DNA of 64,000 nucleotides from Dehalococcoidia bacterium (GTDB lineage Bacteria; Chloroflexota; Dehalococcoidia; DSTF01; JALHUB01), in assembly GCA_030018455.1 (NCBI GenBank), contig JASEFU010000003.1, positions 62,001-126,000 on the forward strand. The letters run 5' to 3'. Below the pieces are notes generated by a model. The model searched no databases. It was given only the letters and a program-made list of their open reading frames with translations, and had not been told where the DNA came from. Both the position numbers and the translations under genes were made by a program. Positions 6,455 to 38,310 of the stretch are shown piece after piece; positions within the stretch are counted from its first letter, which is position 1, and every line of letters starts with the position of its first letter.

Positions 6455-6703
6455 ATGCGGTCCTCCAGAGTGACAGAACGTATAAACGCAAGAGCGCTTG
6501 AGTTGCTTGAACAGCATCCGGAGGGGCTGCGCTGGTCAGAACTGCTTGCAAGCATCCAGGCATCTGATCCCAGCTTTCATCCGAAGACGGTCAACGGATG
6601 CGTTTGGAAACTTGCCGGGAGGTTTCCTGACAAGGTCTACAAACCATCTAAAGGGCTCTTCCGTTTGCTGAAATACAGATCGGCCGGAGTGGACACGCCT
6701 TGA
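6455..6703 (+). CDS. Small putative winged-helix protein
   Basis: An 82-residue basic protein that I cannot assign to a named family. Its pattern (ARALELLEQHPEGLRWSELL, then a helix leading to KTVNGCVWKLAGRFPDKV, then KGLFRLLKY) resembles a winged-helix domain with a beta hairpin, similar in style to HARE or Mrr N-terminal domains. It lies 17 bases after thiC in an otherwise all-thiamin operon. Its base composition looks less GC-rich than its neighbours, suggesting later insertion. No ribosome-binding site is obvious. A DNA-binding role is a guess from shape only. Confidence 0.55.
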   Translation: MRSSRVTERINARALELLEQHPEGLRWSELLASIQASDPSFHPKTVNGCVWKLAGRFPDKVYKPSKGLFRLLKYRSAGVDTP

Positions 6704-6797
6704 CAAGAAAACGGGTCCTCGCTGGCAAGATCAGGAATCTCGAAAAGAAGAGCGTAAGCGGCGCGCAGGCGGAGCGGCAAGAGGGAGGCCGGCGGCC

Positions 6798-7208
6798 ATG
6801 ACCTTCATCTACCCCAAGCACCAGGCGATCCTGGCGGCGGCGGCCGTTATCGTGCGGGATGACTGCGTCCTCCTGCTGGAAGACCGCTGGGGCCGCTGGG
6901 GACTGCCCTCAGGTTTCATCGAGGAGGGGGAAACGCCCGAGGAAACGGTCGCGCGCGAGATCCGCGAGGAGTTGGGCGTGGAGAGCGAGGTCATCGGGCC
7001 GCTCCGGCCGGAGCTGCGATGGGACGGCCCCGAGGACTCGCGCTTCCTCCTGTTGCACTACGCCGTGCGTCTCCTCGGCGACGACTTCACCCCCAACGAG
7101 GAAGTGGTGCAGCACCGGTGGGTGCCCTTCGGCGAGCTCACGGAGTACAACGTCTGGCCCAACATCGCAAACGTTTGCGCCGATTACCGGCGAACAGCGC
7201 AGCTTTAG
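6798..7208 (+). CDS. Nudix hydrolase
   Basis: A 136-residue single-domain Nudix protein. The full Nudix box is present (G-x5-E-x7-REIREELGV, about residues 39-61), giving the metal-binding helix that hydrolyses nucleoside-diphosphate-X bonds. It lies between thiC and thiG, so a role in thiamin pyrophosphate, HMP-PP or damaged-cofactor clean-up is plausible but is inferred from position only. GGGAGG occurs upstream of the ATG. Confidence 0.88.
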   Translation: MTFIYPKHQAILAAAAVIVRDDCVLLLEDRWGRWGLPSGFIEEGETPEETVAREIREELGVESEVIGPLRPELRWDGPEDSRFLLLHYAVRLLGDDFTPNEEVVQHRWVPFGELTEYNVWPNIANVCADYRRTAQL

Positions 7209-7238
7209 GGGCCGCGAAGGCGGCCGTGGAGGCGACAC

Positions 7239-8042
7239 ATGGACGACTATCTGGAGATCGCAGGCAAGAAGTTCCGCTCGCGGCTGCTTGTAGGAACGGG
7301 GAAATACCGCACGGCAGAGGAGATGGTCGCGGCGCTCGATGCGTCCGGCGCCGAGATCGTAACGGTTGCGATCCGCAGGCTCGACCTCGATAACCCGCAG
7401 AAGGAGACGCTGCTTGACCAGATCGACTGGAAGAAATACACGATACTTCCCAACACCGCCGGCTGCCGCACGGTAGAAGAAGCCCTGTTCACCGCCCGTC
7501 TCGGCCGGCAAGTCACCGGCTCGGACTGGGTCAAGGTGGAGGTCGTGCCCGACCCCAAGTACCTGCTCCCCGATCCCGTCGGCACGCTGGAGGCGGCGAA
7601 GCAGCTCATCAGCGAAGGCTTCGTCGTCCTGCCGTACATTCACGCCGACCCCGTGCTCGCGAGGAAGCTGGAGGAAATCGGTTGCGCCACGGTCATGCCC
7701 CTGGGCTCCGCCATCGGCTCAGGCCAGGGGATCCTCACACAGGAAGAGATACAGATCATCATCGAGCAGGCAAACGTGCCGGTAGTCGTCGACGCCGGCC
7801 TCGGCGCCCCTTCCGACGCGGCGCTGGCGATGGAGATGGGTGCGGACGCCGTGCTCATGAACACCGCCCTCGCCGAGGCAGGCGACCCCGCGCTCATGGC
7901 CGACGCCGTCCGGAAAGCAGTGGAGGCGGGCCGCCAGGCTTTTCTTGCCGGCCGCATGCAGAAGCGACGCTACGCTTCCGCCAGCAGTCCCATAGAAGGA
8001 ATACCCCAACGTCCGACCATGTCAACAGGAGGCCCAGCATGA
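7239..8042 (+). CDS. thiG: Thiazole synthase
   Basis: ThiG condenses deoxyxylulose phosphate, dehydroglycine and ThiS-thiocarboxylate sulfur into the thiazole phosphate carboxylate. The 267-residue TIM-barrel shows [10 protein letters not shown] at the N-terminus, the WVKVEV catalytic lysine region, PNTAGC, and the phosphate-binding [13 protein letters not shown] and ADAVLMNTA segments. GGAGG lies 7 bases before the ATG. The stop overlaps the next gene's ATG (ATGA). Because thiO rather than thiH is present, dehydroglycine is expected to come from glycine oxidation. Confidence 0.97.
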
Positions 8043-23224: not shown

Positions 23225-26200
23225 TCAGGGAGCCACGGTGACGTCCTCGCTCAGGGTCTCGGCGCGCCACTCAGGCTTGTAGTACGAGTACACCTGCGAC
23301 GCCACGCCTTTCGCTTTCACCGGGTACAACGCCTTCGCCTGGAACGCGAACGCTATCTCGTCGCCCGGCTCCATGTCCTCGATGTAAAAAATGACCTTCC
23401 GTCCCGCCACGTCGTAGCGCTTTATCTTCGGCTCGGCCGTGACGGCGGAATCGATTGAATCGGCCAGCGCTTCGAAGCCGGTAGGAACCGCGATGTCGAC
23501 CACCACCATCCCCGCTTTCATCGGCAGCGGCGGGTGAAACTCGACGCTCGCTCGAATGTCTATCACGTCGTTCGCCTGCACCTGCTCCGTCGCGTAGTCG
23601 ACTTCGATCGTGAACGCGCCCTGCTCCGGCTCTTCGGCCGGGACGTTGAACCGCGTCACGAGTTGCAGTACGACTTCGCCCTTGCCCTCGGCCCGCACCT
23701 GCACCTGCGCATCGGGCGGCACCTCGATGACCTGGAGAACGTCGAAGTTCCCCGAGTTTACGGTCACCTCCTTCGACTCACCGCCCGCGTTGACGCTGAC
23801 CCTGAGATCGACGTCCGACGCCGCTCCTATCGCCTGCTCGGTCAGCGCCTGCAAGGCAACGACCGTGTCCTGCGTCGACCCGAAGCCGCCGTACGCGTTC
23901 CTCCGGCTCACGAGCCAGCGGGCAGCCTGACCCGCGTTCAGGGCGTCGCCGCGCTTCGTGAGGGTGAGGGTGGCGTAGCCCGTGGCCTCTATCGCGGTGC
24001 TCTGCCCCGGCAGAGGGAACGGCTCGGGCATCGGCCGGACGCCGGGCCCGGGCGGCTCTTCCTCCTCCAGCAGCGGGACGATCTCGCTGCCCCAGTGGAG
24101 ACCGTCCTCGTCCTCTTCCGCCATCTCCATCAGCTTCGCGTGAGCGGCGTCCCTGCTGCCGCTACCGGCCAGCTCAAGCGCGTAGGCGACGATCGCCATC
24201 GTGTACGCGTCGTCGATCCTTTCGAGCTCGCCCTCCAGATAGCGGACCGCCTTCGCCGAGCTGTCGGTCTCGCCCGCCTCAAGCAGGGCGATGGCGACGT
24301 AGGCGGTGAGCGCGGTCTTGCCTTCCACGCCGCCCAGCATCTCCTCGTGATGGACAAAGCCCACCTTCTCGAACGAGCCGTCCTCTTTCTGCTGTTGCGT
24401 GATCCAGTTCACGGCCTCGCTCAGCACGGCGTCGTCGATGAAGACGAGCCCCTTCGCCTGTGAGAACGTCTTCAGCACGAAGGCGGTGAGCCACAGGCTG
24501 CCCACCTCGTCGCTCTCACCGAACGCCGAGAAGCTGCCGTCGTCGCGCCTGTATGTGAGCTCGCGCTGGTAGCCCGTGATCATAAGTTTCTCCGCCTTCG
24601 CCATGATCTCCGGCTTGAGCTGGTTGGTCTCCTTCAGATAGCGGGCGATGAACACGTCGGGCGCCAGCAGCACCATGTTCTGCTCGCCGCAGCCGTAGGG
24701 CATCTGCAAGAGCTGGTCGAGCCCCTCGATTGTCTGCGTCAAATAGCTGGCGGTCAGCGTGAGGTAGGCGCGCGCCGACCCCTCGACGACGGCCGGGGGC
24801 AGCGACGGACCGAACGTGGTCGAGCCGCCGGCGGAGAGGACGGCGTTCTGCGCCGTCTCCCGCTCTATGCCCTCCGGCACAATGATTATCTCTTTGATGA
24901 CGGCGTCGGCGGAATCAGCGCTGCGCGCCGTCACCTTGATCTGCTGCACCCCCAGCGAGCGCGGCCGGATGGTAAACTGCGCGCCGCCGACGTCGTTCGG
25001 CCCGACCGCCACCGTGTCGCTGAGCGCCCCCACGCTCTCGAACCAGGCGGCGGAATCCATCTCTACCGCAAACTCCTGAGGGCTGTCCTGGTAGTTGTAG
25101 AGCGCGATCTTCACCGGGAACTCCTCGCCGCGAACGGCCGAGTACGGAACGTCGACCTGGATGAAGAACGGCTGCATCACCACCAGCTCGCCCTCAGCAA
25201 TGCCCAGACCCTTCTCCTTCGAGAGGGCGACTGCGCGCAGCACCCACGTCGTGATGCTGTCGGGCGCCTCTACGGGCAGCGAGCCCCTGCCGTCGGCGTC
25301 CGTGATTAGCTCTTCCCACAGCCACGTCTCGGGGAAGTACTGCCGCACGCGCCGCACCTCGGCGAGGGCGGCGCCGCTCTGCGATTGCCGGTCCCCTTCG
25401 TCCGGCGCCGCTGCTGCCGGCACCGCTACGCCTTTCATGTCGCCGCGCTCGGCGAGCAGGACGCCGCCTTCGGCCTCCCAGGGGCTCTCGTATTCCTTGC
25501 CCTCCGGCACCTTCTTGTTGCTGAGGACGGTCAGGCCCGCCTCTTCGAAGGTCTCCTTCGCGCCGCGGGTCACAATGCCCTCGTAGGGCGTCGCCTCGTG
25601 CAACTCCACCTGCGGCTCCATGTAAAGCCGCTCCAGTTCGTCGAACACCTGCTGCAGATTAAGACGGTTCTCCGCCAGGATGAAGACCGAGCGGTCGACG
25701 GCGACGAGCCCGACCTTCGCCGGGCCGTCCGTCTGCACCAGCACGTCGAGCGACTGGCCGGGCTCGGCCTGCTCCGCGTTGAACGCGGCCTCGACCGCGT
25801 GCGGATAGTCGCCGCTGACCTCGAACGGCAGGTAGTCGGCGGCGACCTCGCTGTTGGGCAGTATCTGGTAGACGAGCAGCCGGGCACCGGGCGCCATCAG
25901 CGGCGTCGTCCGGAATGAGATTTCGCTGGAGCTCGACGACGCGGTAAAGACGACGCGGCCGCGCGAAACGACTTCGTAGTAGAAGTTGGCGGCCTCGCGC
26001 GTGGAGTGCACCTTAAACTTCGCCTCGTCGCCCGCTTTTAGCTCGCCCTGCGTCACCTGTTCCAGGTGAATGAAGTTGCCCGACGGCGAGTAGGCGGCGT
26101 CGATGGCGACGTAAGAGTAGGCCTCGTCGCTGTACGCGTTCGCCATCAGCGAGACGGCCGCTTCCGGCGGCCTCACTTCCAGCAGCGCCAGCCCGTTCTC

Positions 26201-27358
26201 TGTCCGGACCCGCTCCTGCTCTTGCCCGACGGCCTCGAAGTCTTCGCCCAGGTAGTTGATCTCCACCGTCACCTCTCCGTCGACCGGCTTGTTGTCAGGG
26301 GTCTCGGTGACGACGAGGAACGTGAAGGGCAGCGACGGCTTGAAGGCGTTGCTTTCGGGGATGAGCTCCACCACGACCGGCGCTTCGGAGACCGTGAGGA
26401 GGCGCGTCGTCTTCTCCTCGTAGCCGGTTGACTTCTCCCTGACGGCGATTTCCAACGTCACGTTCCCCATTCCCCTCGCCCCAGGGACGCCGGCCACGTA
26501 CTGCACGGCGGGAAGCTCGAACTGCGCCTCCCCATCGATCTCCTTTGAGAACCGCGCGAACTCCTCCCATTCGCCCACGTAGCGCTGAGCGACGATCTCC
26601 AACTCACCCCGCACCGGTCTTCCGTAGCTGTACTCGGCGGCTACCTTGCCCGTAATCGTCTCGTCGACCAGGAACCACTCTTTCGGCAGGTCAGCCTTGA
26701 TCTCGTACTTGGGCAGCACGTACTCCTCGACCCGCACGTCGATCTGCGCGCTGTGGTCGCCCGCCTGCGCGCTGACTTTCCAGACGCCGAGGTTCGGCTC
26801 CTCCGATATGGGGATGTCGAGAGCGCCCATGCCGTACTCATCGGTGCGCAGGACCGCCTTGTAGACCTTGATCCCCTTGGAGTCCTGCACTTCGAGCGTG
26901 GCGTCCACCGGCGACGGCTTCAGCTCCGAGTCGAGCGATATCAGCCGCGCGTGCAGCGTCTGGCCGGGCTTGTAGATGGGCTTGTCCGTCTCGAGGAAGA
27001 GCATCGAGCCCTGCGCGACCTGCACCGTCGCCTTGTCGGCGAAGCCTTCGCCGCGAACCGTCAGCTCGTATTCGCCCTCGGGCAGGGCCGGCACCTCGAA
27101 GGCGATCGACCCTTTGCCGTCGATCTCGGCGCTCTCCTTGATCACCTCGCGGCCCCCTCGCAGGAGCGCCACCTCGACGTTGCCCGAGGTCAGCTTGTCG
27201 CCCGCGAACAGGCTCAGCGATACCGTCTCCTGCTCGCCGATGCGCAGCACGTTGGGCACGAGCGCAACGTAGCCGTTTATCGCCGAGGCCGTGTCGGAGC
27301 AGTTGCTCACGACGAGGACTGTCAGCAAAAGGCCCGCAATGAAGGATAGCCGTCTCAT
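23225..27358 (-). CDS. Alpha-2-macroglobulin / complement-like thioester protein, animal type
   Basis: A 1377-residue secreted protein. A signal peptide ends near TASA (about residue 27); an alternative lipobox (VSNC) is weak. Beta-sandwich MG domains follow (ETDKPIYKPGQTLHARL), a low-complexity bait-like region at about 610-675, then RQYFPETWLWEEL and DSITTWVLRAVALS as in animal A2M. The thioester is PYGCGEQNM with Cys890 and Gln893. Further on is HHEEMLGG, with His1004 aligning with the complement C3 catalytic histidine, 114 residues from the Cys. A C-terminal receptor-binding-like domain closes the protein. Most bacterial homologs carry CLEQ and sit beside pbpC; neither is true here. GGGAGG precedes the ATG at 27358. 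Confidence 0.93.
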   Translation of the reverse strand: MRRLSFIAGLLLTVLVVSNCSDTASAINGYVALVPNVLRIGEQETVSLSLFAGDKLTSGNVEVALLRGGREVIKESAEIDGKGSIAFEVPALPEGEYELTVRGEGFADKATVQVAQGSMLFLETDKPIYKPGQTLHARLISLDSELKPSPVDATLEVQDSKGIKVYKAVLRTDEYGMGALDIPISEEPNLGVWKVSAQAGDHSAQIDVRVEEYVLPKYEIKADLPKEWFLVDETITGKVAAEYSYGRPVRGELEIVAQRYVGEWEEFARFSKEIDGEAQFELPAVQYVAGVPGARGMGNVTLEIAVREKSTGYEEKTTRLLTVSEAPVVVELIPESNAFKPSLPFTFLVVTETPDNKPVDGEVTVEINYLGEDFEAVGQEQERVRTENGLALLEVRPPEAAVSLMANAYSDEAYSYVAIDAAYSPSGNFIHLEQVTQGELKAGDEAKFKVHSTREAANFYYEVVSRGRVVFTASSSSSEISFRTTPLMAPGARLLVYQILPNSEVAADYLPFEVSGDYPHAVEAAFNAEQAEPGQSLDVLVQTDGPAKVGLVAVDRSVFILAENRLNLQQVFDELERLYMEPQVELHEATPYEGIVTRGAKETFEEAGLTVLSNKKVPEGKEYESPWEAEGGVLLAERGDMKGVAVPAAAAPDEGDRQSQSGAALAEVRRVRQYFPETWLWEELITDADGRGSLPVEAPDSITTWVLRAVALSKEKGLGIAEGELVVMQPFFIQVDVPYSAVRGEEFPVKIALYNYQDSPQEFAVEMDSAAWFESVGALSDTVAVGPNDVGGAQFTIRPRSLGVQQIKVTARSADSADAVIKEIIIVPEGIERETAQNAVLSAGGSTTFGPSLPPAVVEGSARAYLTLTASYLTQTIEGLDQLLQMPYGCGEQNMVLLAPDVFIARYLKETNQLKPEIMAKAEKLMITGYQRELTYRRDDGSFSAFGESDEVGSLWLTAFVLKTFSQAKGLVFIDDAVLSEAVNWITQQQKEDGSFEKVGFVHHEEMLGGVEGKTALTAYVAIALLEAGETDSSAKAVRYLEGELERIDDAYTMAIVAYALELAGSGSRDAAHAKLMEMAEEDEDGLHWGSEIVPLLEEEEPPGPGVRPMPEPFPLPGQSTAIEATGYATLTLTKRGDALNAGQAARWLVSRRNAYGGFGSTQDTVVALQALTEQAIGAASDVDLRVSVNAGGESKEVTVNSGNFDVLQVIEVPPDAQVQVRAEGKGEVVLQLVTRFNVPAEEPEQGAFTIEVDYATEQVQANDVIDIRASVEFHPPLPMKAGMVVVDIAVPTGFEALADSIDSAVTAEPKIKRYDVAGRKVIFYIEDMEPGDEIAFAFQAKALYPVKAKGVASQVYSYYKPEWRAETLSEDVTVAP

Positions 27359-27379
27359 GGTCCACCTCCCGTCATTCAT

Positions 27380-27717
27380 GTCTTAAGAGACGGCGACAGG
27401 GAGAAAAAGGTTCCGGCAGGGGATGCACGCGACGCGGGATTGCGCAAAAAGCGCTTTTCATCGCATATTGTCAGTGGTGCTTCTCAGACCGCCGGGAAAG
27501 GGGGTGACTCCGATGGCTGCCAGCCAGCGCAAGACCTGATTCTTGCAGACAGCGATGCACGGGCTGCATTGTCGAGTTGCCGCGCTGTTCCGGCGGCTGT
27601 TCGCAAGGGTCACCCTCGTCAAGCGAGGTCGGGAACCCCCGGGCTCCTGAAGTCGAAGGCCTGACTGCACGGGCAGTTGCCGCTGCGGTCGGCTCTTACG
27701 ACGAAAGGAGCTTCTTT
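27380..27717 (+). other. Long, apparently structured leader before the selenium genes
   Basis: No convincing gene lies in these 338 bases. A promoter-like pair is at 27440-27469. Downstream, GGGTGAC (27502-27508) can pair with GTCACCC (27609-27615), enclosing smaller hairpins such as GGCT/AGCC and GATGCA/TGCATT; CCTCG/CGAGG follows. This could be a structured 5' leader. It does not match any riboswitch class I know, nor a tRNA. TCTTAAGAGAC at 27381-27391 is also found before the gene at 38378-39202. Confidence 0.4.
27440..27469 (+). promoter_or_regulatory. Possible promoter of the selenium cluster
   Basis: TTGCGC (27440-27445), an 18-base spacer and CATATT (27464-27469) resemble a sigma70 promoter in a GC-rich genome. 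It would give a leader of about 240 bases before the yedE GTG. Confidence 0.4.
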
Positions 27718-29007
27718 GTGATACCTCTTCTGCGAAATGCGGCGGATATATCCGCTCGTGCCTGCAAACGTCTTCTTCTCAGCGCCCTGTCGCTGCCCTT
27801 CCGCGCTACCGGCGAAGGCGCTTCGGATGCGGCTTCCAGCGGCGCCGCCGTCGGTGTTGCCGACAAAGAGACCCCGGGTGCTCGCCGCCCGGAAGTCCGG
27901 CGCGAGGGTCTTCTGCGGCGCTTTCTGCGTTCCCGCTGGCTAGTCATAGGCACAGGGCTTTTCATCGGTGTGCTGGCGCCGGTGCTGGCGAAGGCGGGCA
28001 ATCCCGGAAACATGGGGATCTGCGTCGCCTGCTTCAACCGCGACATCGCGGGGGCGCTGGGACTGCACCGCGCGGCCGCCGTCCAGTACATACGCCCCGA
28101 GATAATCGGCATCGTGCTGGGGTCGGTGGCGTCCGCGGTCTTCTTCCGAGAGTTCAGGCCCCGCACCGGCTCGGCGCCTCTGGTGCGCTTCCTCCTCGGC
28201 GCGTTCGCCGTTATCGGCGCCCTCGTCTTCCTGGGGTGCCCCTGGCGCGCCTACCTGCGCCTCAGCGGCGGCGACTGGAACGCCGTTCTGGGGATCGGCG
28301 GACTGATTGCGGGGATAGCTGTGGGCGTGGTCTTCCTGAGGATGGGCTATACGCTGGGCCGAAGCAGAGCGGCCCCATTCTCCCTCGGCTGGATGATGCC
28401 GCTGCTGATGGTCGGGCTCCTCCTGCTGCTCCTCTTCGAACCGAAGCTGGGCAGAGACGCCGAAGGCAACGCTGTCGGCCCCATCTTTTTCAGCGAGTCC
28501 GGCCCTGGCTCTCAGTACGCCCCGCTGGCGGTCTCGCTCGTCGTGGGGCTTGCCATCGGCGCGCTGGCGCAGCGCAGCCGCTTTTGCACGATAGCGGGCG
28601 TGCGCGACTTCATACTGATGCGCGACACCCATCTGCTGAGCGGCATCCTGGCGCTGATTGCGGCGGCGTTCGTGACCAACGCCCTCCTCGGGCAGTTCCA
28701 CGCCGGCTTCGACGGCCAGCCCGTCGCTCACACCGAACACCTGTGGAACTTCTCCGGCATGGCGCTGGCCGGCCTGGCCTTTACCCTCGCCGGCGGCTGT
28801 CCGGGAAGGCAACTTGTCCTTTCCGGTGAAGGAGACGGCGACGCCGCCGTCTTCGCGCTGGGCATGATTTTCGGCGCAGGTTTCGCCCACACGTTTTCGC
28901 TCGCCAGCTCGCCCGCGGGACACGGCGTCTACGGGCCGGCGGCGGTGGTCATCGGGCTGGTCTTCTGCGCCGCCGTCGGGCTCACAATGCGCGAGGCCCG
29001 GAGCTGA
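27718..29007 (+). CDS. yedE: YedE/YeeE-family selenium (or sulfur) transporter
   Basis: A 429-residue multi-spanning membrane protein of the selenium-associated YedE group. Hallmarks are KAGNPGNMGICVACFNRDIAG, HRAAAVQYIRPEI, FLGCPWRAYLRL, RSRFCTIAGVRDFIL and LAGGCPGRQL, with conserved cysteines thought to pass the substrate. The GTG at 27718 has AAAGGAG upstream. This start gives about 70 residues of low-complexity extra N-terminus before the usual family start, so translation could begin later. TusA-like, desulfurase-like and DUF3343 genes follow, the set known to travel with selenium metabolism. Confidence 0.88.
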   Translation: MIPLLRNAADISARACKRLLLSALSLPFRATGEGASDAASSGAAVGVADKETPGARRPEVRREGLLRRFLRSRWLVIGTGLFIGVLAPVLAKAGNPGNMGICVACFNRDIAGALGLHRAAAVQYIRPEIIGIVLGSVASAVFFREFRPRTGSAPLVRFLLGAFAVIGALVFLGCPWRAYLRLSGGDWNAVLGIGGLIAGIAVGVVFLRMGYTLGRSRAAPFSLGWMMPLLMVGLLLLLLFEPKLGRDAEGNAVGPIFFSESGPGSQYAPLAVSLVVGLAIGALAQRSRFCTIAGVRDFILMRDTHLLSGILALIAAAFVTNALLGQFHAGFDGQPVAHTEHLWNFSGMALAGLAFTLAGGCPGRQLVLSGEGDGDAAVFALGMIFGAGFAHTFSLASSPAGHGVYGPAAVVIGLVFCAAVGLTMREARS

Positions 29008-29019
29008 AAGGGGTAAGAG

Positions 29020-29241
29020 ATGGCTGACATACACACCGTTGACGCCAGGGGGCTTTCGTGCCCGCATCCGGCAATGATGACCCGCGAAGCTATCCTCCGC
29101 CAGGACTCAGGGGTCATAGAGGTGCTGGTGGACACGGCGACCTCGCGCGACAACTGCGCCCGCATGGCGGAGAGCAACGGCTGGTCGGTGGAGACGGCGC
29201 CGAACAACGAAGGCGGGTTCCGCCTGGTGCTGAGAAAATGA
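29020..29241 (+). CDS. TusA/YedF-like sulfur or selenium carrier
   Basis: A 73-residue TusA-fold protein with the cysteine motif GLSCPHPAMM (CPxP; Cys14), which carries persulfide or perselenide. It corresponds to the N-terminal domain of selenium-associated YedF proteins; the C-terminal domain of longer YedF is absent. It lies 12 bases after yedE and its stop overlaps the next start (ATGA). Confidence 0.9.
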   Translation: MADIHTVDARGLSCPHPAMMTREAILRQDSGVIEVLVDTATSRDNCARMAESNGWSVETAPNNEGGFRLVLRK

Positions 29242-30389
29242 TCTACCTCGACAACGCCGCTACCTCCTGGCCCAAGCCGCCGGAGGTGGCGCGCGCCATG
29301 ACCGATTTTCTGGAAAAAGCGGGGGGTAACCCCGGGCGCTCCGGACACGGCCTGTCTGTGCAGGCAGGCCGTGTCCTTTTCGAGACGCGCGAGCTGCTCG
29401 CCGCCTTGTTCAACGCTCCCGATCCGCTGCGCGTCATCTTCACCGCCAGCGCCACGCACGCGCTCAACATCGCCCTTCAGGGGCTGCTTCGTGAAGGCGA
29501 CCACGTGGTCTGCAGCGGCATCGAGCACAACTCGGTGATGCGGCCGCTCCGCGAGCTGGAGCGACGGGGCGTGCGGCTCACCGTGGCGCCCTGTTCCAGC
29601 GATGGGACGCTGCAAGTGTCCGAACTGCGGAAGGCGGTGACACCGAGGACCCGCCTGGTCGCGCTTGCCCACGCGAGCAACGTCATCGGCACGATACAGC
29701 CGGTGGAGGAAGCAGCGGCCATCGCCCATGCGGCGGGAGCGCTCCTGCTCATCGACGCGGCCCAGACGGCGGGCGTCCTGCCGATAGACATCGCGGCGCA
29801 GGGCATCGACCTTCTCGCCTTCACGGGGCATAAGGGACTCCTGGGCCCACAGGGGACAGGCGGGCTCGTCATCGGAGAGCGCGTGGACGTGCGCGAGCTG
29901 CGCCCGCTTTTCTTCGGCGGGACGGGGAGCCGGTCGCAGCACCAGGAGCAGCCGGACGCCCTCCCCGACAAATACGAGAGCGGCACACCCAACGGCCCCG
30001 GCATCGCCGGACTGGGCGCGGGCGTGAGGTTCCTGCTCGCGCGCGGCATCGACTCCGTGCGGGAACACGAGCTCGCACTGATGCGGGCGCTGATCGACGG
30101 GTTGGGGGAGACGCCGAACGTCACGCTGTTCGGTCCCACCGACGTCCACCGGCGCGTCGCCATCGCGTCGGTGACCGTCGCCGGCCGCTCCGTCTCGGAG
30201 GTCGGGCAACGGCTGGAACAGGAGTCCGGCGTGCTCGCCCGCGTGGGGCTTCACTGCGCGCCCGCCGCGCACCGAACCATCGGCACCTTTCCCGAGGGCA
30301 CGGTGCGACTGGCCCCCGGCGTGTTCACGACAATGCGAGACGTCGACGCGGCGGTGAAAGCGCTGCGAAGGATAGCGCAGGGCAGATGA
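29238..30389 (+). CDS. Cysteine desulfurase / selenocysteine lyase-like enzyme
   Basis: A 383-residue class V aminotransferase-fold PLP enzyme. It starts MIYLDNAATSWPKP, has NSVMRPL, IDAAQTAG and the lysine motif FTGHKGLLGPQG that binds PLP, and keeps a catalytic cysteine in VGLHCAPAAH. This matches the desulfurase subfamily found with YedE and YedF in selenium gene sets, so it may release selenium or sulfur from cysteine analogs. Its stop overlaps the DUF3343 start. Confidence 0.9.
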   Translation: MIYLDNAATSWPKPPEVARAMTDFLEKAGGNPGRSGHGLSVQAGRVLFETRELLAALFNAPDPLRVIFTASATHALNIALQGLLREGDHVVCSGIEHNSVMRPLRELERRGVRLTVAPCSSDGTLQVSELRKAVTPRTRLVALAHASNVIGTIQPVEEAAAIAHAAGALLLIDAAQTAGVLPIDIAAQGIDLLAFTGHKGLLGPQGTGGLVIGERVDVRELRPLFFGGTGSRSQHQEQPDALPDKYESGTPNGPGIAGLGAGVRFLLARGIDSVREHELALMRALIDGLGETPNVTLFGPTDVHRRVAIASVTVAGRSVSEVGQRLEQESGVLARVGLHCAPAAHRTIGTFPEGTVRLAPGVFTTMRDVDAAVKALRRIAQGR

Positions 30390-30607
30390 CGGCGGTCTTC
30401 CTCTTCCACACCAGCTCGGCGGTGTTCAGGGCCGAGAAAGCGCTCAAGGAGGCGCGCGTACCGGCGCGTCTCATCCCCACGCCGCGTCAGTTCTCCAGCG
30501 ACTGCGGCATCGCCCTGAGCATTGACGCACAGTATGCGGAAGCAGCGCAAACCGTCCTCGACAAGGCGGGCGTCGAATATGCCGCCCTGCACCGGATGGC
30601 GCCCTGA
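30386..30607 (+). CDS. DUF3343 putative Se/S carrier-like protein
   Basis: A 73-residue DUF3343 protein starting FLFHTSSAVFRAEKALKEA and holding the conserved SSDCGIAL with a single cysteine (Cys40) that may carry selenium or sulfur. It overlaps the desulfurase-like gene by 4 bases and ends the four-gene cluster; only 7 bases separate it from the convergent ECF gene. Function in the family is not established. Confidence 0.85.
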   Translation: MTAVFLFHTSSAVFRAEKALKEARVPARLIPTPRQFSSDCGIALSIDAQYAEAAQTVLDKAGVEYAALHRMAP

Positions 30608-30614
30608 CGGCGCG

Positions 30615-31451
30615 CTACTCGAAGCGGACCTGAAAGCGGTCGCGGAAACGCGTGAGGACGTCGAGCACGGGCCTGCCCAGCGCAAGGATGAGGACCAGGT
30701 TCGCCAGGGCCCGCCAGGCGTCCCAACCGGCGGACGTCAGGATGTAGAACGACCAGTAGTGACGGACCGCCTCGTCGAAGCCCATGCCGGGACGCCACGA
30801 TATGCTCTCGCCGCTCGCCATCATCGGCCAGAACCAGAGGTTCATCACGGCGCCGAACAGGAACCCCCAGGCCACGCCGAACGCCGCCAGCAACGCCAGC
30901 TCCGTACGCGGCCGACGGCACAGCCGCCCCTTCGCCGCGCCCAGCCAGCCCGCGGTCATCCCCATCCAGCCGGAGACGAACACCTGGAACGGCAGCCAGG
31001 GCCCAAACCCGCTGACGGCAAAGGCCGAGACGAAGAGCGCGCCCGCCCCGAGGAGAAAGCCGAAACGGGGTCCGAAGACATACCCTCCCAGAATGATCGC
31101 AAAGAAGAACGCCGTGGCCCCTGCCGGCAGCGTGGGGACGCGGAGCGCCGCCGCAATCACCACCAGCGCCGCCATCACCGAGGCCGTCTTCGCGTTCATC
31201 CCCTGACCCGCGATCTCGAGGACGAACAGCAGCAGGCTGAGCCCCAGCACGAGGCCGAAGATGAGCGGCGCGTCCTGGGAGTGGGCGGCCGTGCCGGAGC
31301 TGGTTGCCGCGCTCAAGAAGAAGGGATAAAAGAACGCGAACAGCCCGACGAGGCTGATCACCACCAGCGTCGCCGTCGAAGAGAGGCCGGCAAGCAGGGA
31401 GCGGGCGGGAAGACCTCCGCGTAGCGACGGCAGCGCGACTTCGCTAGCCAC
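30615..31451 (-). CDS. ECF transporter S component, probably for cobalamin
   Basis: A 278-residue membrane protein with about six to eight hydrophobic segments, typical of ECF substrate-binding components (FFFAIILGGYVFGPRFGFLLG, in part, and GPWLPFQVFVSGWMGMTAG). It is the last gene behind a cobalamin riboswitch, after EcfT, the EcfA fusion and the DUF4430-like protein, so vitamin B12 or a corrinoid is the inferred substrate. The GTG start at 31451 has GGAGGAG upstream and overlaps the preceding gene's stop by 8 bases. Confidence 0.82.
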   Translation of the reverse strand: MASEVALPSLRGGLPARSLLAGLSSTATLVVISLVGLFAFFYPFFLSAATSSGTAAHSQDAPLIFGLVLGLSLLLFVLEIAGQGMNAKTASVMAALVVIAAALRVPTLPAGATAFFFAIILGGYVFGPRFGFLLGAGALFVSAFAVSGFGPWLPFQVFVSGWMGMTAGWLGAAKGRLCRRPRTELALLAAFGVAWGFLFGAVMNLWFWPMMASGESISWRPGMGFDEAVRHYWSFYILTSAGWDAWRALANLVLILALGRPVLDVLTRFRDRFQVRFE

Positions 31452-32265
31452 GTGATCTCCTCCACAGGACGAGCGACACAGTACCCAGAGCCGCGGCCAC
31501 GGCCCCGAACCCGAGCAGCTCGAGCGGAAAATCGAGGCCGTTGTCTCCACCCTGTTCCGTCGACGGCGTATTCGTCGCGACGGGGGTCTTCGTCGCGGCC
31601 TCAGGGGTCTTCGTCGCGGCCTTAGCCGGCGCCCTTTCCGTCTGGGCCGGCGTCGAAGTCGCAGTCGGCAGCTCCGTAGCCCCGGCCGCCGTCGCAGCGA
31701 GGGTGGGAGCGACGGTCTGGGAAGCCAGCGCCGGCTCCGTCGGCGGCGGCGCCAGCGTGGGCGGCGGCTCCGTCGGCGGCGGACATATCTCCTCGAACGC
31801 GCGCAGTTCGGGCTGGGCGCCGCCGCCCGGCTTGCCGGAGCCCCACGCCCAGCCATCGACGTCCCCGTCACGCACCTTGCGCAACGACGCCCCCACGTTC
31901 GAATACTTCCACGCGCCCGCGTCCAGCGTGTAATACGCCCAATAGCGGCAATCGGCGCCGCGGCAGTGGCAAAAACAATCATTGGGGTTATCGCAGCCCA
32001 CGTCCTCAATTTTGCATACCGCAGCCCCGCCGGCGCCCCCTGTGGTCACAAGCGAAAGCCCTGAGCGGCGCAACAACTCCGCCCCTGTTATCTCCGCCTC
32101 CGCGAACTCGACGCATACGGTTGTGGTCCGCCCGCCGCCGAAGCTGACCACGATCCCGGCCCGCTTCGGGGCCTCGCCCGCAGCGTCGCCGCCGGGCAGC
32201 GCCGCCAGGGCAACCGCCAGCGCGAAGAGCGCCAAGAGACGCATGCCCCTAAAGCTACTGCGCAA
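31444..32265 (-). CDS. Membrane-anchored DUF4430-like (transcobalamin C-domain type) protein
   Basis: A 273-residue secreted protein. A signal peptide (LLALFALAVALAALPGGDA) leads to a domain with ITGAELLRRSGL, a cysteine-rich insert (CDNPNDCFCHCRGADC), and YWAYYTLDAGAWKYSNVGAS with KVRDGDVDGWAWG, the pattern of DUF4430, which is related to the small C-terminal domain of intrinsic factor and transcobalamin. A Thr/Pro/Ala stalk (about 165-240) and one C-terminal transmembrane helix with a basic tail (WRRSRG) follow. I chose TTG at 32265 with GGGAGG upstream; ATG at 32244 is an alternative. It probably helps hold cobalamin at the cell surface. Confidence 0.75.
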   Translation of the reverse strand: MRSSFRGMRLLALFALAVALAALPGGDAAGEAPKRAGIVVSFGGGRTTTVCVEFAEAEITGAELLRRSGLSLVTTGGAGGAAVCKIEDVGCDNPNDCFCHCRGADCRYWAYYTLDAGAWKYSNVGASLRKVRDGDVDGWAWGSGKPGGGAQPELRAFEEICPPPTEPPPTLAPPPTEPALASQTVAPTLAATAAGATELPTATSTPAQTERAPAKAATKTPEAATKTPVATNTPSTEQGGDNGLDFPLELLGFGAVAAALGTVSLVLWRRSRG

Positions 32266-33862
32266 CCTTCTCCCCCTCCCTCGATTGCAGCACGTCCTCC
32301 ACCGTCAGATAACCGCCGCCGAAGAGCTTGTTCACCTGCGTGCTGAACGTGATCGATTCCGTGAGCACGTCGCGCGCCGGGCCCTCCGCCACGATCTCGC
32401 CGTCCGCCAGCAGGACGATGCGGTCGGCGCACGAGGCGACGAGTTCGACATCGTGGCTGGCGAGCACGACTGTCGCGCCTTCGCGGCAGCGGCGCCTCAG
32501 GTTGTCGACGAGGATCTGTTTCGTCTCATAGTCCATGCCGCGCGTGGGCTCGTCGAGCAGGAGGACAGATGGGCGGCCCGCGAGCATGGAAGCCAGCGCC
32601 GCCCTCTGGCGCTCGCCGGCGCTAAGGTCGCGGGGATGCAAGCCCCGCAGCGACTCCAGCCGCCACTCGCTGAGCGCCTCGTCGACGCTGCCCGCGCGGC
32701 CCGTTCCCTTGAGTGTGTCCTCTATCTCCGCCTCGACTGTCGAATGAAAGAGGACGGAGGCAGGCTCCTGCGGCACCAGCGCCAGTCGCAGCGCCAGACG
32801 CTCGGCGCCGCACCCGGCGGCGTCCTCGTCGAGTATGCGGACACTTCCCGACTTCACCGGCAGCAGCCCGGCGCACGCCCTCAGCAGGCTGGTCTTGCCG
32901 GCGCCGTTCCGTCCCATCAGGGCAAGTATCTGCCCGGGATAGGCGGCGAGCGAGACGTTTGTGACGGCGGGACGCGGCCCGTACGCTATGCTCACCTTTT
33001 CGATGAGCACGGCAGGCTTGTGGTCTCGCGCGGGCGTCGAGCCGTCGCGACCCGAGCGCGGCGCCGGCATCCGCTCCACAAAACGCCTCCCCTCTCGTAT
33101 CGACAGCGGTAGCGGCTCCCAGCCGAGCGTCCGCCCCAGGCGTGCGACGGGAGGAGAAAGCGGGAGCATCCTCATCGCCTCCCGCGCCGTGAGATCGACG
33201 ACGGAGCCGGAGCCGTCGAGGTACAGGACGCGCTCCGCGTACTGCACCACCCGCTCCAGCCGGTGCTCGGCGATGACGATCGTCAGCCCCAGGTCGGTGT
33301 TGAGCCGCTGCACCGCCGTCAGCACCTCCTCTGCCGCCTGCGGGTCGAGCTGCGACGTCGGCTCGTCGAGGAGCAGCGCCTTCGGCTGCATGGTCAGCAC
33401 CGCGCCGATGACGACGCGCTGCAGCTCGCCGCCGGAGAGCGTGTCCAGCCGCCGCTTCTTCAGATGAGCGATGCCCAGGATATCCAGCACCTCTTCCACG
33501 CGCTTCCGCATCGTCAGGCGCGGCACGCCCAGGTTCTCCATCCCGAATGCGATCTCGTCCTCCACCGTGTCGGCGACAAACTGCGCCTCGGGGTCCTGGA
33601 ACACCATGCCCGCCTTCTGCGCCAGGTCGCGCGGCTGGCAGGTCAACGTGTCCAGGCCCTCGACGATGACGCGACCACCGAAGCTGCCGCCGTGGAAATG
33701 GGGCACGAGACCGTTCAGACAGCGCAGGAACGTGGACTTGCCGCTGCCCGATGCTCCCACCAGCAGCACTACCTCGCCCGCGCCGATTGTGAGGCTGACG
33801 TCGCGCAGCACGGGCGCCGATGCGTTCGGGTAGGAAAACGTTAGGCCGCTAACCTCGATCAC
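32255..33862 (-). CDS. ecfA: Fused ECF transporter ATPase (EcfA-EcfA')
   Basis: A 535-residue protein with two ABC ATPase domains in one chain. Domain 1 has GASGSGKST, VFQDPEAQF, LSGGELQR and LLLDEPTSQLDP; domain 2 (from about residue 285) has GRNGAGKTS, LSAGERQR and LLLDEPTRGMDYE. These pair in one polypeptide to drive the ECF module, replacing separate EcfA1 and EcfA2. It overlaps ecfT by 14 bases and the DUF4430-like gene by 11 bases, so the operon is tightly coupled. Confidence 0.93.
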   Translation of the reverse strand: MIEVSGLTFSYPNASAPVLRDVSLTIGAGEVVLLVGASGSGKSTFLRCLNGLVPHFHGGSFGGRVIVEGLDTLTCQPRDLAQKAGMVFQDPEAQFVADTVEDEIAFGMENLGVPRLTMRKRVEEVLDILGIAHLKKRRLDTLSGGELQRVVIGAVLTMQPKALLLDEPTSQLDPQAAEEVLTAVQRLNTDLGLTIVIAEHRLERVVQYAERVLYLDGSGSVVDLTAREAMRMLPLSPPVARLGRTLGWEPLPLSIREGRRFVERMPAPRSGRDGSTPARDHKPAVLIEKVSIAYGPRPAVTNVSLAAYPGQILALMGRNGAGKTSLLRACAGLLPVKSGSVRILDEDAAGCGAERLALRLALVPQEPASVLFHSTVEAEIEDTLKGTGRAGSVDEALSEWRLESLRGLHPRDLSAGERQRAALASMLAGRPSVLLLDEPTRGMDYETKQILVDNLRRRCREGATVVLASHDVELVASCADRIVLLADGEIVAEGPARDVLTESITFSTQVNKLFGGGYLTVEDVLQSREGEKVAQ

Positions 33863-34985
33863 TTTCTTCGTCCTTGGTCGACAGCATGAGCAGGGCCGGA
33901 GCGGGCAACAACAAGAACGCCGCTACCGCGAGGGGGTGGAACGCCGGGAAAGACGCTTCCGGGAAAGGCGAGTAGCCGACACCGGCCGCGTCGAGGACAC
34001 GCAGCGCCAGCAGCATAAGCGGCGCCAGCAACGCGCTTCCCGCAATAGCAAAGTCCGCGCCGTCCCACATCTCCTTCACGTAAAAGCTGCTCTCGTCGCC
34101 GCCGCCCCAGAACGCGACCGCCACAAGCGCCGTCCCGCCGAGCAGCAGCAGGGCGGCGACGGCCGGCGCGGAGTAGTAAAAGTACACGAACGAGCCGGCC
34201 CCCAGGAGCGCGGCGCCCGCCACCGACGCCGCCGCCTTCGCCAGACGCCGCGCCGATGATGATACGGGCACCCGGCCGAAACCGCGCGCGTCGAGCGACT
34301 CCGCCCGCTGGACCGACCGCTCGAGCGACGCGCCCAGCACCGGTACCGCTAGCGCGGCGACGCTGCGCAGACCCGTCGCCTTCCTTCCCCGCAGCCGCTG
34401 CGCCTCCACCGCCGACTTCGACTGCCGGACGAGCTGCGGGAGCAGCATCACCGCAACCGTCAGCACGATGCCGAGTTGTCGCAGGCCGGGGGGCAGCAGG
34501 CGCAGCAGCCGGTAATGATCGACGGCGAGGTTGAAGGCGGCGGCAAACAAGAGGAGCGCGACCACTCGCAGGGCGCGCTCGAGGGCGTAAAGGAGCGATT
34601 CCAGCGTTACGGCGCCCCCCAGCGTCACGCCGCCGAACCAGTCGGGAAACGTAAGGCTGGGCAGTTCGAAGAGGAGCGTAGGCCCGCGGCCCCCGGTCAG
34701 CAGATTGAACGGGATGCTGAGCAGCGCGAAGAAGAGAACCAGCTTCACCGCCAGGTCGTAGAACGACTGTTGCGACCGCCACGGCAGCGAGGTGCAAACC
34801 ATCAGCGCCCCCAGGCACGCCGTCGCCAAGTACAGCGGGTTGGAGGTCAGGAAGACGGCGACGGAGGCGGCCAGCAGCCAGACGAGCCAGACGTCGGCGC
34901 GCCCGACCCGTCCGCGCGCGCCCTCTCGTTCCGTCCGCTCACGGACCGGCTGTCCCCGCCAGGAACGGTCGCGTATCCCGATCAA
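33849..34985 (-). CDS. ecfT: ECF transporter transmembrane component EcfT
   Basis: A 378-residue CbiQ/EcfT-family membrane protein. The two coupling motifs are AQRLRGRKA and AESLDARGFG near residues 190-240; they dock onto the EcfA ATPases. It starts with TTG at 34985, three bases after the preceding stop. Its C-terminal region has extra hydrophobic segments beyond the usual EcfT core, making it longer than the typical 250-270 residues. Confidence 0.88.
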   Translation of the reverse strand: MIGIRDRSWRGQPVRERTEREGARGRVGRADVWLVWLLAASVAVFLTSNPLYLATACLGALMVCTSLPWRSQQSFYDLAVKLVLFFALLSIPFNLLTGGRGPTLLFELPSLTFPDWFGGVTLGGAVTLESLLYALERALRVVALLLFAAAFNLAVDHYRLLRLLPPGLRQLGIVLTVAVMLLPQLVRQSKSAVEAQRLRGRKATGLRSVAALAVPVLGASLERSVQRAESLDARGFGRVPVSSSARRLAKAAASVAGAALLGAGSFVYFYYSAPAVAALLLLGGTALVAVAFWGGGDESSFYVKEMWDGADFAIAGSALLAPLMLLALRVLDAAGVGYSPFPEASFPAFHPLAVAAFLLLPAPALLMLSTKDEESDRG

Positions 34986-34988
34986 CCG

Positions 34989-36194
34989 TCATCCCTTTCC
35001 CATGCGGCGCGCGACCAGCGAAGCGGTGATGCCCACGCCGGCCGCCAGCAGGAGCGCCGCCGCAAAAACAGGCGCGAGATCATGCCCGGTCTCGCCGCCG
35101 CCGCCCGAGCGCGGCATCGTAACGGCCTGCGAGGCCGGCGTGGGAGCGAGAGACGAGCCGCCAGGGGGAGCAATGACCGGCTGAGGCGAAGGCGTCTCGG
35201 TCGCCGTCATCACCGGGGTAGGCGTCTTCGTCGGCTTCGGGGTAGCGGTCTCCTCCTGGGGCGTCGCCGTAGGAAGCGAATACGTGCGCAGGAGAAGCGC
35301 CGGTACCGCCTGGTACGTGGCATAGGCGCTGTCCACGCCGCCATAGGTGAATGCGCCCGTCACCGGGTTCTGGAACGCCAGCAGCGCCTCCATGGGAGTG
35401 TTGCCCTGCTTCTCCCAGGGGCCTCCGGCGTCGATGTTCTCGCCGGCGGCGACCAGCGCCTGGATTACGAACGCCGTCGAGTTGGCGTCGGAATCGCTTG
35501 GTATCAGGTAGGGGAAGCCGCCGTCGTTGTTCTGGGCGGCCGCCAAGTAGTCCAGCGCGTCCTCGATTGCGCTGTCCGAGGGAGAGACGTCGGCGGCCAC
35601 CAGCGCCTGGATAGCCAGCGACGTGGTGTTGGTGTCGCAGCCCCAACCGTCGCCGTACTCCCAGCAGCCCTCGGCCATCTGCTTCGATTTCAGGTGATTG
35701 ACGGAGCCGGCGGCGGGCGACAGACCGAGCTTCGAGCGGGCGAGCATGTAAAGGCAATGGTCGAAGACGCCATCACCGTAGCTGCCGGCGTCGAAATACG
35801 ACTCCATCTTCTCGACGAAGTCGACGCCGGCGAAATCGCGCGGGTCCTCTCCCAGCGCAATCAGGCCCAGGACCAGCTTGGCGGCGGCCCCGGCGACACC
35901 GCTGTAGGACGCCGCCTGCCCTTCGATGTAGTCGACGGGCGAGTTCCCGCCGCTTGTAACTGTGCGGGCGTCGATCCCGGCGGCCGCAAAGGCGAAGACG
36001 GCATCGAGCGTCGCCCCCGGGGACGAGCCGGCGCCGAAATCAGGGAAGCCGCCGTCGGCGTTCTGCAGCCCGCGGATGTAGTCCAGCGCCTCTTCGGCCG
36101 CGTCCTGTTCCGGTGTTGCGGCGATAACGAACGAGTAGCCCGCCGCCATCACGGCGGCAACGGCCAGTAGAAAGCATGCAGCTTTGCGAAGCAT
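34989..36194 (-). CDS. Membrane-anchored alpha/alpha-barrel protein (intrinsic-factor-like domain)
   Basis: A 401-residue secreted protein, first after the cobalamin riboswitch. A signal peptide ends near FVIAA. Repeats of the prenyltransferase/squalene-cyclase type follow: QNADGGFPDFG, CDTNTTSLAIQALVAA, QNNDGGFPYL and DANSTAFVIQALVAAG. The D-x6-I-x-A-L helix pattern resembles the large barrel of intrinsic factor and transcobalamin. A Thr/Pro stalk (about 310-365) and one C-terminal helix with tail ARRMGKG anchor it. AAAGGA lies 8 bases before the ATG. A terpene-cyclase role is unlikely: no catalytic DxDD motif is seen and the protein is exported. Confidence 0.8.
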   Translation of the reverse strand: MLRKAACFLLAVAAVMAAGYSFVIAATPEQDAAEEALDYIRGLQNADGGFPDFGAGSSPGATLDAVFAFAAAGIDARTVTSGGNSPVDYIEGQAASYSGVAGAAAKLVLGLIALGEDPRDFAGVDFVEKMESYFDAGSYGDGVFDHCLYMLARSKLGLSPAAGSVNHLKSKQMAEGCWEYGDGWGCDTNTTSLAIQALVAADVSPSDSAIEDALDYLAAAQNNDGGFPYLIPSDSDANSTAFVIQALVAAGENIDAGGPWEKQGNTPMEALLAFQNPVTGAFTYGGVDSAYATYQAVPALLLRTYSLPTATPQEETATPKPTKTPTPVMTATETPSPQPVIAPPGGSSLAPTPASQAVTMPRSGGGGETGHDLAPVFAAALLLAAGVGITASLVARRMGKG

Positions 36195-36327
36195 GAGGAG
36201 TCCTTTCTCAGAGTCTGACGCGGGAATGAGAGCTTACGTGAAGAGACCCCCGGCGCTGCGAGGGTCTTGATCAGGTGGCACGTACCATGTTTCCGCCCCC
36301 CTTTCGAGCGAAGGTCCTGGGAACGAA

Positions 36328-36445
36328 CAGGGGCGGGTATCCTGGCTCGTCGGTCACAGCCGACTTACAGTTGCGCGACAGCGCCGGACTCTCACCGGCT
36401 TCCCCCTTGGCGACCCTCGCATCCGGGCTTCGGGTCACCCCTGCC
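36328..36445 (-). promoter_or_regulatory. Cobalamin riboswitch
   Basis: On the minus strand the conserved core reads GGGGGAAGCCGGTGAGAGTC, then CGGCGCTGTCGCGCAACTG followed by TAAG, and the B12 box GCCAGGATACCCGCC. CAGGGG (36438-36443) pairs with CCCCTG (36328-36333) to close the aptamer. Downstream, AGACCC/GGGTCT near 36245-36270 may form the regulatory hairpin. It controls the ECF operon. Confidence 0.93.
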
Positions 36446-36467
36446 GGCCTATAGTGTTGTTGGCTAG

Positions 36468-36497
36468 ATTGTAGCAGCGAGCAGAAAAAGCCGTCAA
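36468..36497 (-). promoter_or_regulatory. Promoter of the cobalamin ECF operon
   Basis: TTGACG (36492-36497), an 18-base spacer and TACAAT (36468-36473) on the minus strand give a strong sigma70-like promoter just upstream of the riboswitch. The 250 bases from here to the acyl-CoA ligase start hold only weak promoter-like sequences such as TTGACC near 36661 and no visible gene. Confidence 0.7.
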
Positions 36498-36747
36498 TAC
36501 CAGCGGGTGGAAGCGTCAACGGTGGCTCGCATCGACACTGGTGATCGGGCAGAGACGCCCGCTCCTTTGGAGCGAGAAGAGCGATACTTTTCGCATCCGC
36601 TTATCCGTTTCCCCGTCCGTTGACAGGCCCACCGGCTGCCGCGTCAGCGGACGTTCCGTGCTTGACCCAGCCATTGTCCGCTGGCATCCTAGCATCGAGT
36701 CCGGATAAAGACGGTTTCGAACTACCCGACCACCAGGAGGCACACAG

Positions 36748-38310
36748 ATGATCGTCTCCAGCTACTGGCCCAGCCAGCAACCGTACCCCGAATACCCGCT
36801 GCCCGAACTGCTCAGACGGACCGTCCAGACCTTCGCCGACAAGCCCGCGCTCATAAGCGCCGAGGGCGACATGCGGACCTACGGCAGGGTCTGGAGCGAC
36901 GCCCGAAAGGTCGCCCGCCTGCTGCAGGACAAGGGCGTCGAAAAGGGCGATAAGGTTGCCATCTTCTCCCCCAACCACGTCGACTACGCCGCCGTCTTCT
37001 ACGGCTCGCTCCTCGCAGGGGCCACCGTCACCACGCTCAATCCGCTCTACACCGCCCACGAGGCGCAGACCCAGCTCGCCGACGCCGAAGCGGTCGCCAT
37101 CTTCGTGTACAGCCCCATGGCCGCCGCCGTCCAGGAAGCGAAAAAGGGTCTGCCCCTCTTGCGCGAGGTCTTCCCCATCGACCAGCTCGCCGACGTCCTC
37201 GGCGGCGTCTCCGAGGACTACCGCCCAGTGCAGATCAACCCGCGCGAGGACGTCGCCGCCCTCCCCTACTCGAGCGGCACGACGGGGATGCCCAAGGGCG
37301 TGATGCTCACCCACTACAACATCACCAGCAACGTCGCGCAGGGGCTCGTCACCCGCTTCGTCTCCTCCGACATGGTGGGGCTATGGACACTCCCCCTCTT
37401 CCACATCTACGGCATGACCGTGCTCATGAGCAGCGGCGTCGCCCGGGGAGGCACGGGCATCGTGATGATGCGCTTCGACGCCGAGCAGATGCTGTACCTT
37501 ATCGAGAAGCACCGCATCACCGACATCTACCTGGCGCCGCCCGCCATCCTGGCGATGGTCAACGTTCCCAACGCGACGTCGCGCTTCGACACCTCGTCGC
37601 TCCAGGTCATCGGCTCCGGCGCCGCGCCGCTGCCGCTCGAGATCGGCGAACGCGCCAAGTCGATGTTCAAGTGCGTCGTCTCGCAGGGCTACGGCATGAC
37701 GGAGACCAGCCCGACCACGAACACCAACCCGCTCGACCGCGTCAAGCTGGAGACGGTGGGGCCGCCGTTCCCCGACACGTTCGAGAAGATCGTCAGCCTC
37801 GACACGGGCGAGGAGCTGCCGCCGACCGAGGTGGGCGAGCTTCTGGTGAAGGGCCCGCAGGTGATGAAGGGCTACTGGAAGAACCCGAAGGAAACGGCGG
37901 AGTGTCTCACCGAGGACGGCTGGCTGCGCACGGGCGACATCGGCCGCTTCGATGAGGAGAACTACCTCTGCCTCATCGAGCGCAAGAAGGAGATGATCAA
38001 GTACAAGGGCTACCAGGTGGCGCCGGCGGAGATCGAGGCGCTGATGCACCAGCACCCGGCCGTCCTCGACGTTGCCGTCATCCCCAAGCCCGACGCCGCC
38101 GGCGGCGAGATACCGAAGGCGTGCGTCGTGCTGCGCCCCGGCGTCGAGTGCGCGCCCGAACAGCTCATGGCGTTCGTCGCCGAGCGCGTCGCGCCTTATA
38201 AGAAGATCCGCGAGGTCGAGTTCTTCCGGGAGATACCGAAGACGGCGTCGGGCAAGATACTGCGACGCGACCTCATCCAGCGCGAGCGCGAGAAGGCGCA
38301 GCCGCAATAG
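36748..38310 (+). CDS. Acyl-CoA ligase (AMP-forming), 4-coumarate/fatty acid type
   Basis: A 520-residue ANL-superfamily enzyme. Seen are the P-loop YSSGTTGMPKGVMLTHYN, the GYGMTETSP motif, the TGDIGRFDEENYL hinge region, and the C-terminal catalytic lysine in PKTASGKILRR. It activates a carboxylic acid with ATP and forms a CoA thioester. The length and motifs fit the 4-coumarate/medium-to-long-chain acid group; the acid is not determined. AGGAGG lies 8 bases before the ATG. Confidence 0.92.
   Translation: MIVSSYWPSQQPYPEYPLPELLRRTVQTFADKPALISAEGDMRTYGRVWSDARKVARLLQDKGVEKGDKVAIFSPNHVDYAAVFYGSLLAGATVTTLNPLYTAHEAQTQLADAEAVAIFVYSPMAAAVQEAKKGLPLLREVFPIDQLADVLGGVSEDYRPVQINPREDVAALPYSSGTTGMPKGVMLTHYNITSNVAQGLVTRFVSSDMVGLWTLPLFHIYGMTVLMSSGVARGGTGIVMMRFDAEQMLYLIEKHRITDIYLAPPAILAMVNVPNATSRFDTSSLQVIGSGAAPLPLEIGERAKSMFKCVVSQGYGMTETSPTTNTNPLDRVKLETVGPPFPDTFEKIVSLDTGEELPPTEVGELLVKGPQVMKGYWKNPKETAECLTEDGWLRTGDIGRFDEENYLCLIERKKEMIKYKGYQVAPAEIEALMHQHPAVLDVAVIPKPDAAGGEIPKACVVLRPGVECAPEQLMAFVAERVAPYKKIREVEFFREIPKTASGKILRRDLIQREREKAQPQ

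Follow-up and report, generated by a model that had tools for sequence, protein, structure and literature searches.

What would a bacterium do with two surface proteins that resemble the two halves of an animal vitamin B12 carrier, encoded side by side with a vitamin importer? The question is raised by an operon at 30615-36497 on the minus strand of a 64,000-nucleotide stretch of a Dehalococcoidia genome (the window), in which five tightly packed genes encode an alpha/alpha-barrel protein, EcfT, EcfA, a small DUF4430-like protein and an S component of an energy-coupling factor (ECF) transporter, with a single promoter and a single riboswitch ahead of them. Patterns detected in the window and in related genomes suggest that cobalamin or a close corrinoid relative is probably taken up by a dedicated ECF importer of group I that this operon specifies, equipped with a split surface binder of the transcobalamin and intrinsic-factor type that hands its ligand to the S component.

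Operon, riboswitch and conservation

An earlier note on this DNA, made from its letters alone, had placed one promoter and a cobalamin riboswitch before five overlapping or abutting genes, and both signals were found. The sigma-70-like promoter (TTGACG-18-TACAAT, 36468..36497, minus strand) is the sole such site in 30300-36800, where 0.4 would be expected from shuffles. The cobalamin riboswitch aptamer (RF00174; 36315..36457, minus strand) scored 78.2 bits (E 1.5e-17) against a gathering threshold of 31.5, and is the only RF00174 match in the source genome, which comprises 2.38 Mb and is 97.7% complete. Cobalamin riboswitches as a family allow expression when corrinoid is scarce. Thermodynamic folding of the leader RNA gave no signal above shuffles (z 0.47) and did not decide between control of transcription and of translation. 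The genes, all on the minus strand, encode the secreted, C-terminally anchored barrel protein of 401 residues (34989..36194), the transmembrane coupling protein EcfT (33849..34985), EcfA with two fused ATP-binding cassette ATPase domains (32255..33862), the DUF4430-like or transcobalamin-beta-like protein, likewise secreted and C-terminally anchored (31444..32265, with an ATG at 32244 as the likelier start), and the 278-residue, CbrT-like S component (30615..31451, with a GTG start at 31451). A gap of 3 bp parts the barrel gene from that of EcfT, and the remaining junctions are overlaps of 14 bp (EcfT/EcfA), 11 bp (EcfA/DUF4430-like) and 8 bp (DUF4430-like/S component), as the proposed packing had it.

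The arrangement is not a product of chance, because the same gene set and the same riboswitch recur in dozens of related genomes. Loci from these genomes carry L-numbers below, and their neighbourhoods were read individually. The five-gene set occurs in the orders barrel-T-A-small-S and barrel-small-S-T-A and in variants of these. A covariance model built from eleven leaders had a covariation of 0.416, where shuffles gave 0.131 and slid controls no more than 0.112, and it found the riboswitch in 33 of 36 further, independently fetched loci; Rfam agreed on nearly all loci checked, with scores up to 130 bits. A distance of 111-382 bp always separated the riboswitch from the barrel domain downstream of it or, where the operon lacked a barrel (five cases) or had it later (L079), from the small domain. 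By single-sequence search the small protein was present in 19 of 197 genomes of the class, the three weakest matches being probably to stalk repeats alone, and by profile search the small domain was present in 84 of 350 genomes of the phylum (45 of 201 genera). A plasmid collection that was searched held no relative.

The importer and its substrate

The three transporter genes scored above curated family cut-offs, in agreement with the identities first given to them: EcfT matched PF02361 (CbiQ) with 38.2 bits against a cut-off of 25, EcfA matched ABC_tran and also TIGR04520 with 326.6 bits against 315, and the S component matched PF12822 (ECF_trnsprt) with 47.7 bits against 30.7. In EcfA the Walker A, signature and Walker B motifs each occur twice and are all intact. 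With an EcfT of the CbiQ family, ECF-type ATPases and an S component encoded beside its own T and A, the importer is by sequence one of group I. The best PDB match of the S-component family profile was 6FNP chain A (E 1.5e-8), which is CbrT, the cobalamin S component of Lactobacillus delbrueckii ECF-CbrT (PMC5997447), with folate S components next at 4e-4 and weaker.

The genome encodes two B12-dependent enzymes, methylmalonyl-CoA mutase and an IcmF-like fused mutase. Neither CbiC nor BtuC was found in it, absences that rest on single-family searches; its sole FecCD match is an ABC-3 metal-type permease, and a BtuC-type alternative importer was rejected on that ground. Because the mutases are present, CbiC is absent and the FecCD match is a metal permease, the genome appears to need imported corrinoid and the operon to be its only visible route. 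B12 as the substrate, which the earlier note had drawn from the riboswitch, is thus supported as well by the nearness of the S component to CbrT, by the mutases and by the missing CbiC and BtuC. The IcmF-like protein joins B12-binding, MeaB and mutase parts in 1202 residues and is encoded at G000:C4, about 3228-6518 (L054, L139).

In place of complete cobalamin the substrate could be cobalt, a precursor of corrinoids or a compound of the lower ligand, as cobalamin riboswitches also regulate cobalt and precursor transporters (CblT and the Cbi-type cobalt systems), but this would not account for an S component that lies nearest to CbrT and differs in kind from CbiM, nor for the presence of B12-dependent mutases, and a genome without CbiC would gain little from cobalt or early precursors. 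We regard this alternative as very improbable. Incomplete corrinoids are possible substrates because CbrT itself also transports cobinamide (PMC5997447).

The surface proteins

The barrel protein and the small protein share one plan, in which hydropathy identified an N-terminal hydrophobic segment, a domain, a stalk rich in Pro, Thr and Ala and one C-terminal membrane helix, consistent with two secreted, membrane-anchored proteins as previously described. On the minus strand, the barrel protein consists of a signal peptide (about 36120-36194), the barrel (about 35265-36122), the stalk and the membrane helix (35013-35069), while in the small protein AlphaFold and hydropathy delimit a folded domain (31771-32181) that is followed by the stalk and the membrane helix (31462-31518).

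The small protein matched no Pfam family. Queries against Pfam and PDB, whether made with its sequence alone or with profiles of 16 and 40 rows, were uninformative, and its relation to DUF4430 and transcobalamin was visible only by fold and by profile-profile comparison. An AlphaFold model of the small domain from the 16-row alignment was built with a predicted local distance difference test (pLDDT) of 92.1 and a predicted template modelling score (pTM) of 0.86. Its 17 best PDB matches were exclusively transcobalamin, the isolated beta domain of transcobalamin, haptocorrin, intrinsic factor and, at rank 5, the bacterial DUF4430 protein 3u7z (probability 0.99-1.00, E about 1e-3 to 8e-2), which bears out the suggested kinship of the small part with the C-terminal domain of transcobalamin. 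Compared profile to profile with genuine DUF4430 domains of the same class, the family reached 73% with 16 rows and, in hhalign with 40 rows, 94% (E 1.2e-7); the genuine DUF4430 set itself matches haptocorrin (transcobalamin-1) by sequence at E 0.0024, and transcobalamin-2 more weakly. The cut-off of PF14478 (DUF4430) was passed by none of the window's family, the best of 40 members having E 0.15, and against NCBIfam SCO2322_fam the small protein scored 34.1 bits, below the cut-off of 85. The name DUF4430-like is therefore upheld by the fold of 3u7z and by the profile comparison, but not by Pfam. Tandem copies of the small domain within one operon were observed at L075:7898-9051, where the copies are identical, and in L073 and L083.

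The carrier had been called split, and in the window the two domains do belong to separate genes, but fused forms also exist and some operons have no barrel. The small domain is fused ahead of the barrel in L014, L016, L018 and L079, and behind it, in the animal order, in L134 (with a single barrel) and in L091 and L092 (barrel-barrel-small); the fusions in L134, L091, L092, L014 and L079 all lie behind a riboswitch. The clearest case is L134, where a riboswitch of 65.4 bits is followed by a 543-residue protein and then by the S, T and A genes. The chain runs from a signal through a single barrel and the small domain, which has 47% identity with that of the window, to a stalk and a membrane helix. 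The model of this fusion (pLDDT 89.5, pTM 0.72) had as its 14 best PDB matches transcobalamin or intrinsic factor over both domains, with E from 1.4e-10 to 3.4e-7, ahead of all cyclases. The small-domain phylogeny was too poorly resolved for fusion events to be counted. On a Streptomyces contig, L018:3477-6139, a small-barrel-barrel fusion and a further barrel gene are led by three cobalamin riboswitch cores; two of the three are divergent.

The window barrel is an alpha/alpha toroid, and its named relatives include proteins of Anaerolineae and other Chloroflexi. It matched SQHop_cyclase_C (PF13243) with 38.1 bits against a cut-off of 26.1, and NCBIfam SCO2321_fam with 125.1 bits, below the cut-off of 300. 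On the proposed kinship with the transcobalamin barrel, the eukaryotic Cobalamin_bind family PF01122 gave mixed results: an ortholog, L024, passes its cut-off (26.6 bits against 25, over profile positions 134-312), 3 of 20 family barrels match it weakly, and the window barrel itself, to which cyclases are closer by sequence, does not match it. These cyclase matches, SQHop_cyclase_C above its cut-off among them, together with an alpha-2-macroglobulin gene about 8 kb off, could indicate that the barrel merely travels with a vitamin operon and acts outside the cell as an enzyme resembling terpene cyclases or the thioester proteins of complement. However, the DxDD cyclase motif is absent from the window barrel and occurs in one of 47 family barrels, the CGEQ thioester occurs in none of the 47, that of the window included, and the barrel is constantly linked to ECF genes and riboswitch. 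With both motifs missing, a terpene cyclase or thioester protein was rejected, and we give the travelling enzyme almost no credence. The alpha-2-macroglobulin (window 23225-27379, minus strand), which stands apart from the operon, is of the bacterial kind, with TED, bait-region and receptor domains and a CGEQ thioester of its own.

Several observations weigh against a surface pair that binds B12. The TM-scores of the small domain are moderate, 0.51-0.56 by query and 0.65-0.76 by isolated target domains, and its identity with solved transcobalamin-type structures is 10-17%. The barrel is nearer in sequence to squalene cyclases than to transcobalamin, transcobalamin-1 appearing at E 0.01 over most of the length, and a Pfam search of the window barrel gave no match to PF01122. 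The L134 model misses the relative domain placement of transcobalamin, with a root-mean-square deviation of about 24 A; as the model is ligand-free, this placement is evidence neither for nor against a closed clamp. Five riboswitch-led operons (L068, L069, L090, L095 and L100) combine the small domain with ECF genes and have no barrel, so that a two-part clamp is not obligatory. In a related locus type of the same class (L045-L050), a regulator, an anchored barrel, a DUF4430 lipoprotein, EcfT, fused EcfA and S are encoded without a detectable cobalamin riboswitch; the L045 barrel bears a C-terminal transcobalamin-like domain. The barrel-less lineages and this locus type show that members of the wider family need not have both surface proteins, nor the riboswitch. 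Finally, a PduO-type adenosyltransferase was not found in the genome, other adenosyltransferase types not having been searched.

An explanation that would suit part of these observations is that the ECF part imports corrinoids and the surface proteins bind none, acting instead as a scaffold, as binders of the cell wall or another partner, or as a shield of the transporter. Alpha/alpha barrels and DUF4430-type folds are found in many contexts, barrel-less operons exist, and the best sequence relatives of the window barrel are cyclases. This explanation would not account for the observation that the two folds paired in animal B12 carriers share an operon, occur fused in either order and stand under a B12 riboswitch in several lineages, and we consider it improbable.

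Proposed mechanism and significance

For the preferred reading, an importer with a split corrinoid binder, we infer that B12 is the ligand, that the two surface proteins clamp it jointly and that it is handed over to the S component. Low intracellular corrinoid would switch the operon on through the riboswitch. The barrel and the DUF4430-like protein would then form the two halves of the binder, each tethered by its stalk and single helix to the outer face of the membrane, and, judging from fold and fusions, corrinoid would most likely be captured between them at the surface. The binder may then release it to the S component. Import, powered by ATP through EcfT and the fused EcfA, would follow. 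From the S component onward, ATP-driven ECF transport is established, and in the usual view of ECF transporters the membrane S component alone captures the vitamin.

With rather less assurance, we also lean toward a broader interpretation, that the operon represents a widespread class of ECF importer with a dedicated extracellular two-part tethered clamp, occurring in split and single-chain forms, and that the animal B12 carriers could share ancestry with it. If this is true, an external capture step is added to the ECF transporter model, SCO2321, SCO2322 and their kin acquire a function, bacteria may capture B12 like human intrinsic factor and transcobalamin, and the unexplained origin of these carriers gains a bacterial comparison. 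With the single-chain form of L134, a single purified protein would be enough for a direct test.

Neighbouring features

Two further features of the window were observed on the plus strand. A thiamine pyrophosphate riboswitch stands ahead of a thiD-thiC-thiG-like thiamine synthesis cluster (4077-8042), and a sulphur/selenium gene cluster convergent with the B12 operon (27577-30607) encodes a YeeE-type transporter, a TusA-like protein, a class V aminotransferase resembling cysteine desulfurase and a putative Se/S carrier (PF11823).

Comparison with known systems

Earlier hints of such a system are known, namely a database name for an ECF lipoprotein, the animal link between DUF4430 and transcobalamin, and two Streptomyces families without function, but no description of the whole was found. 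In a full-text literature search, with subscription papers and preprints outside its coverage, no paper was found to describe the barrel, the two surface proteins as a pair, or an ECF importer equipped with a binder of this kind. The database name, "additional lipoprotein component of putative cobalamin ECF transporter", is one that we take to stem from SEED. It is listed for Lacticaseibacillus rhamnosus (PMC9963975), and the likeness, a proposed tie to B12 ECF transport, is by that listed name only. A riboswitch-regulated B12 transporter in a Chloroflexi species is mentioned in general terms by Sun and co-workers (PMC3766115).

ECF-CbrT (PDB 6FNP, PMC5997447) shares the ECF architecture and has the nearest solved S component, but depends on a shared ECF module (group II), and its description includes no extracellular binding proteins, whereas the window operon has a dedicated T and A and includes two anchored surface proteins. 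BtuG and related Bacteroides surface B12 lipoproteins (PMC6143338) likewise capture B12 at the surface ahead of an importer; this is a functional analogy only, and BtuG belongs to an outer-membrane TonB-dependent system. The two surface proteins match exactly the NCBIfam families SCO2321_fam and SCO2322_fam of Streptomyces, which are numbered as neighbours, although both scores fall under the curated cut-offs and the families carry no function; in one Streptomyces genome such a small domain is followed by the ECF genes, and another locus has a riboswitch ahead of a small-barrel-barrel fusion. DUF4430 (PF14478) proteins, including RUMGNA_00854 (PDB 3u7z), resemble the small domain in fold and profile, but the window family has extra conserved cysteines, and a barrel partner has not been described for DUF4430 proteins. 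The link between DUF4430 and transcobalamin in animals has been reported (PMC4350170). In animal transcobalamin, intrinsic factor and haptocorrin an alpha/alpha barrel is likewise combined with a small beta domain; the window differs in that one operon encodes the halves as separate proteins, each anchored in the membrane, with 10-17% identity and putative corrinoid binding, while L134 has the same domain order as the animal carriers in one chain.

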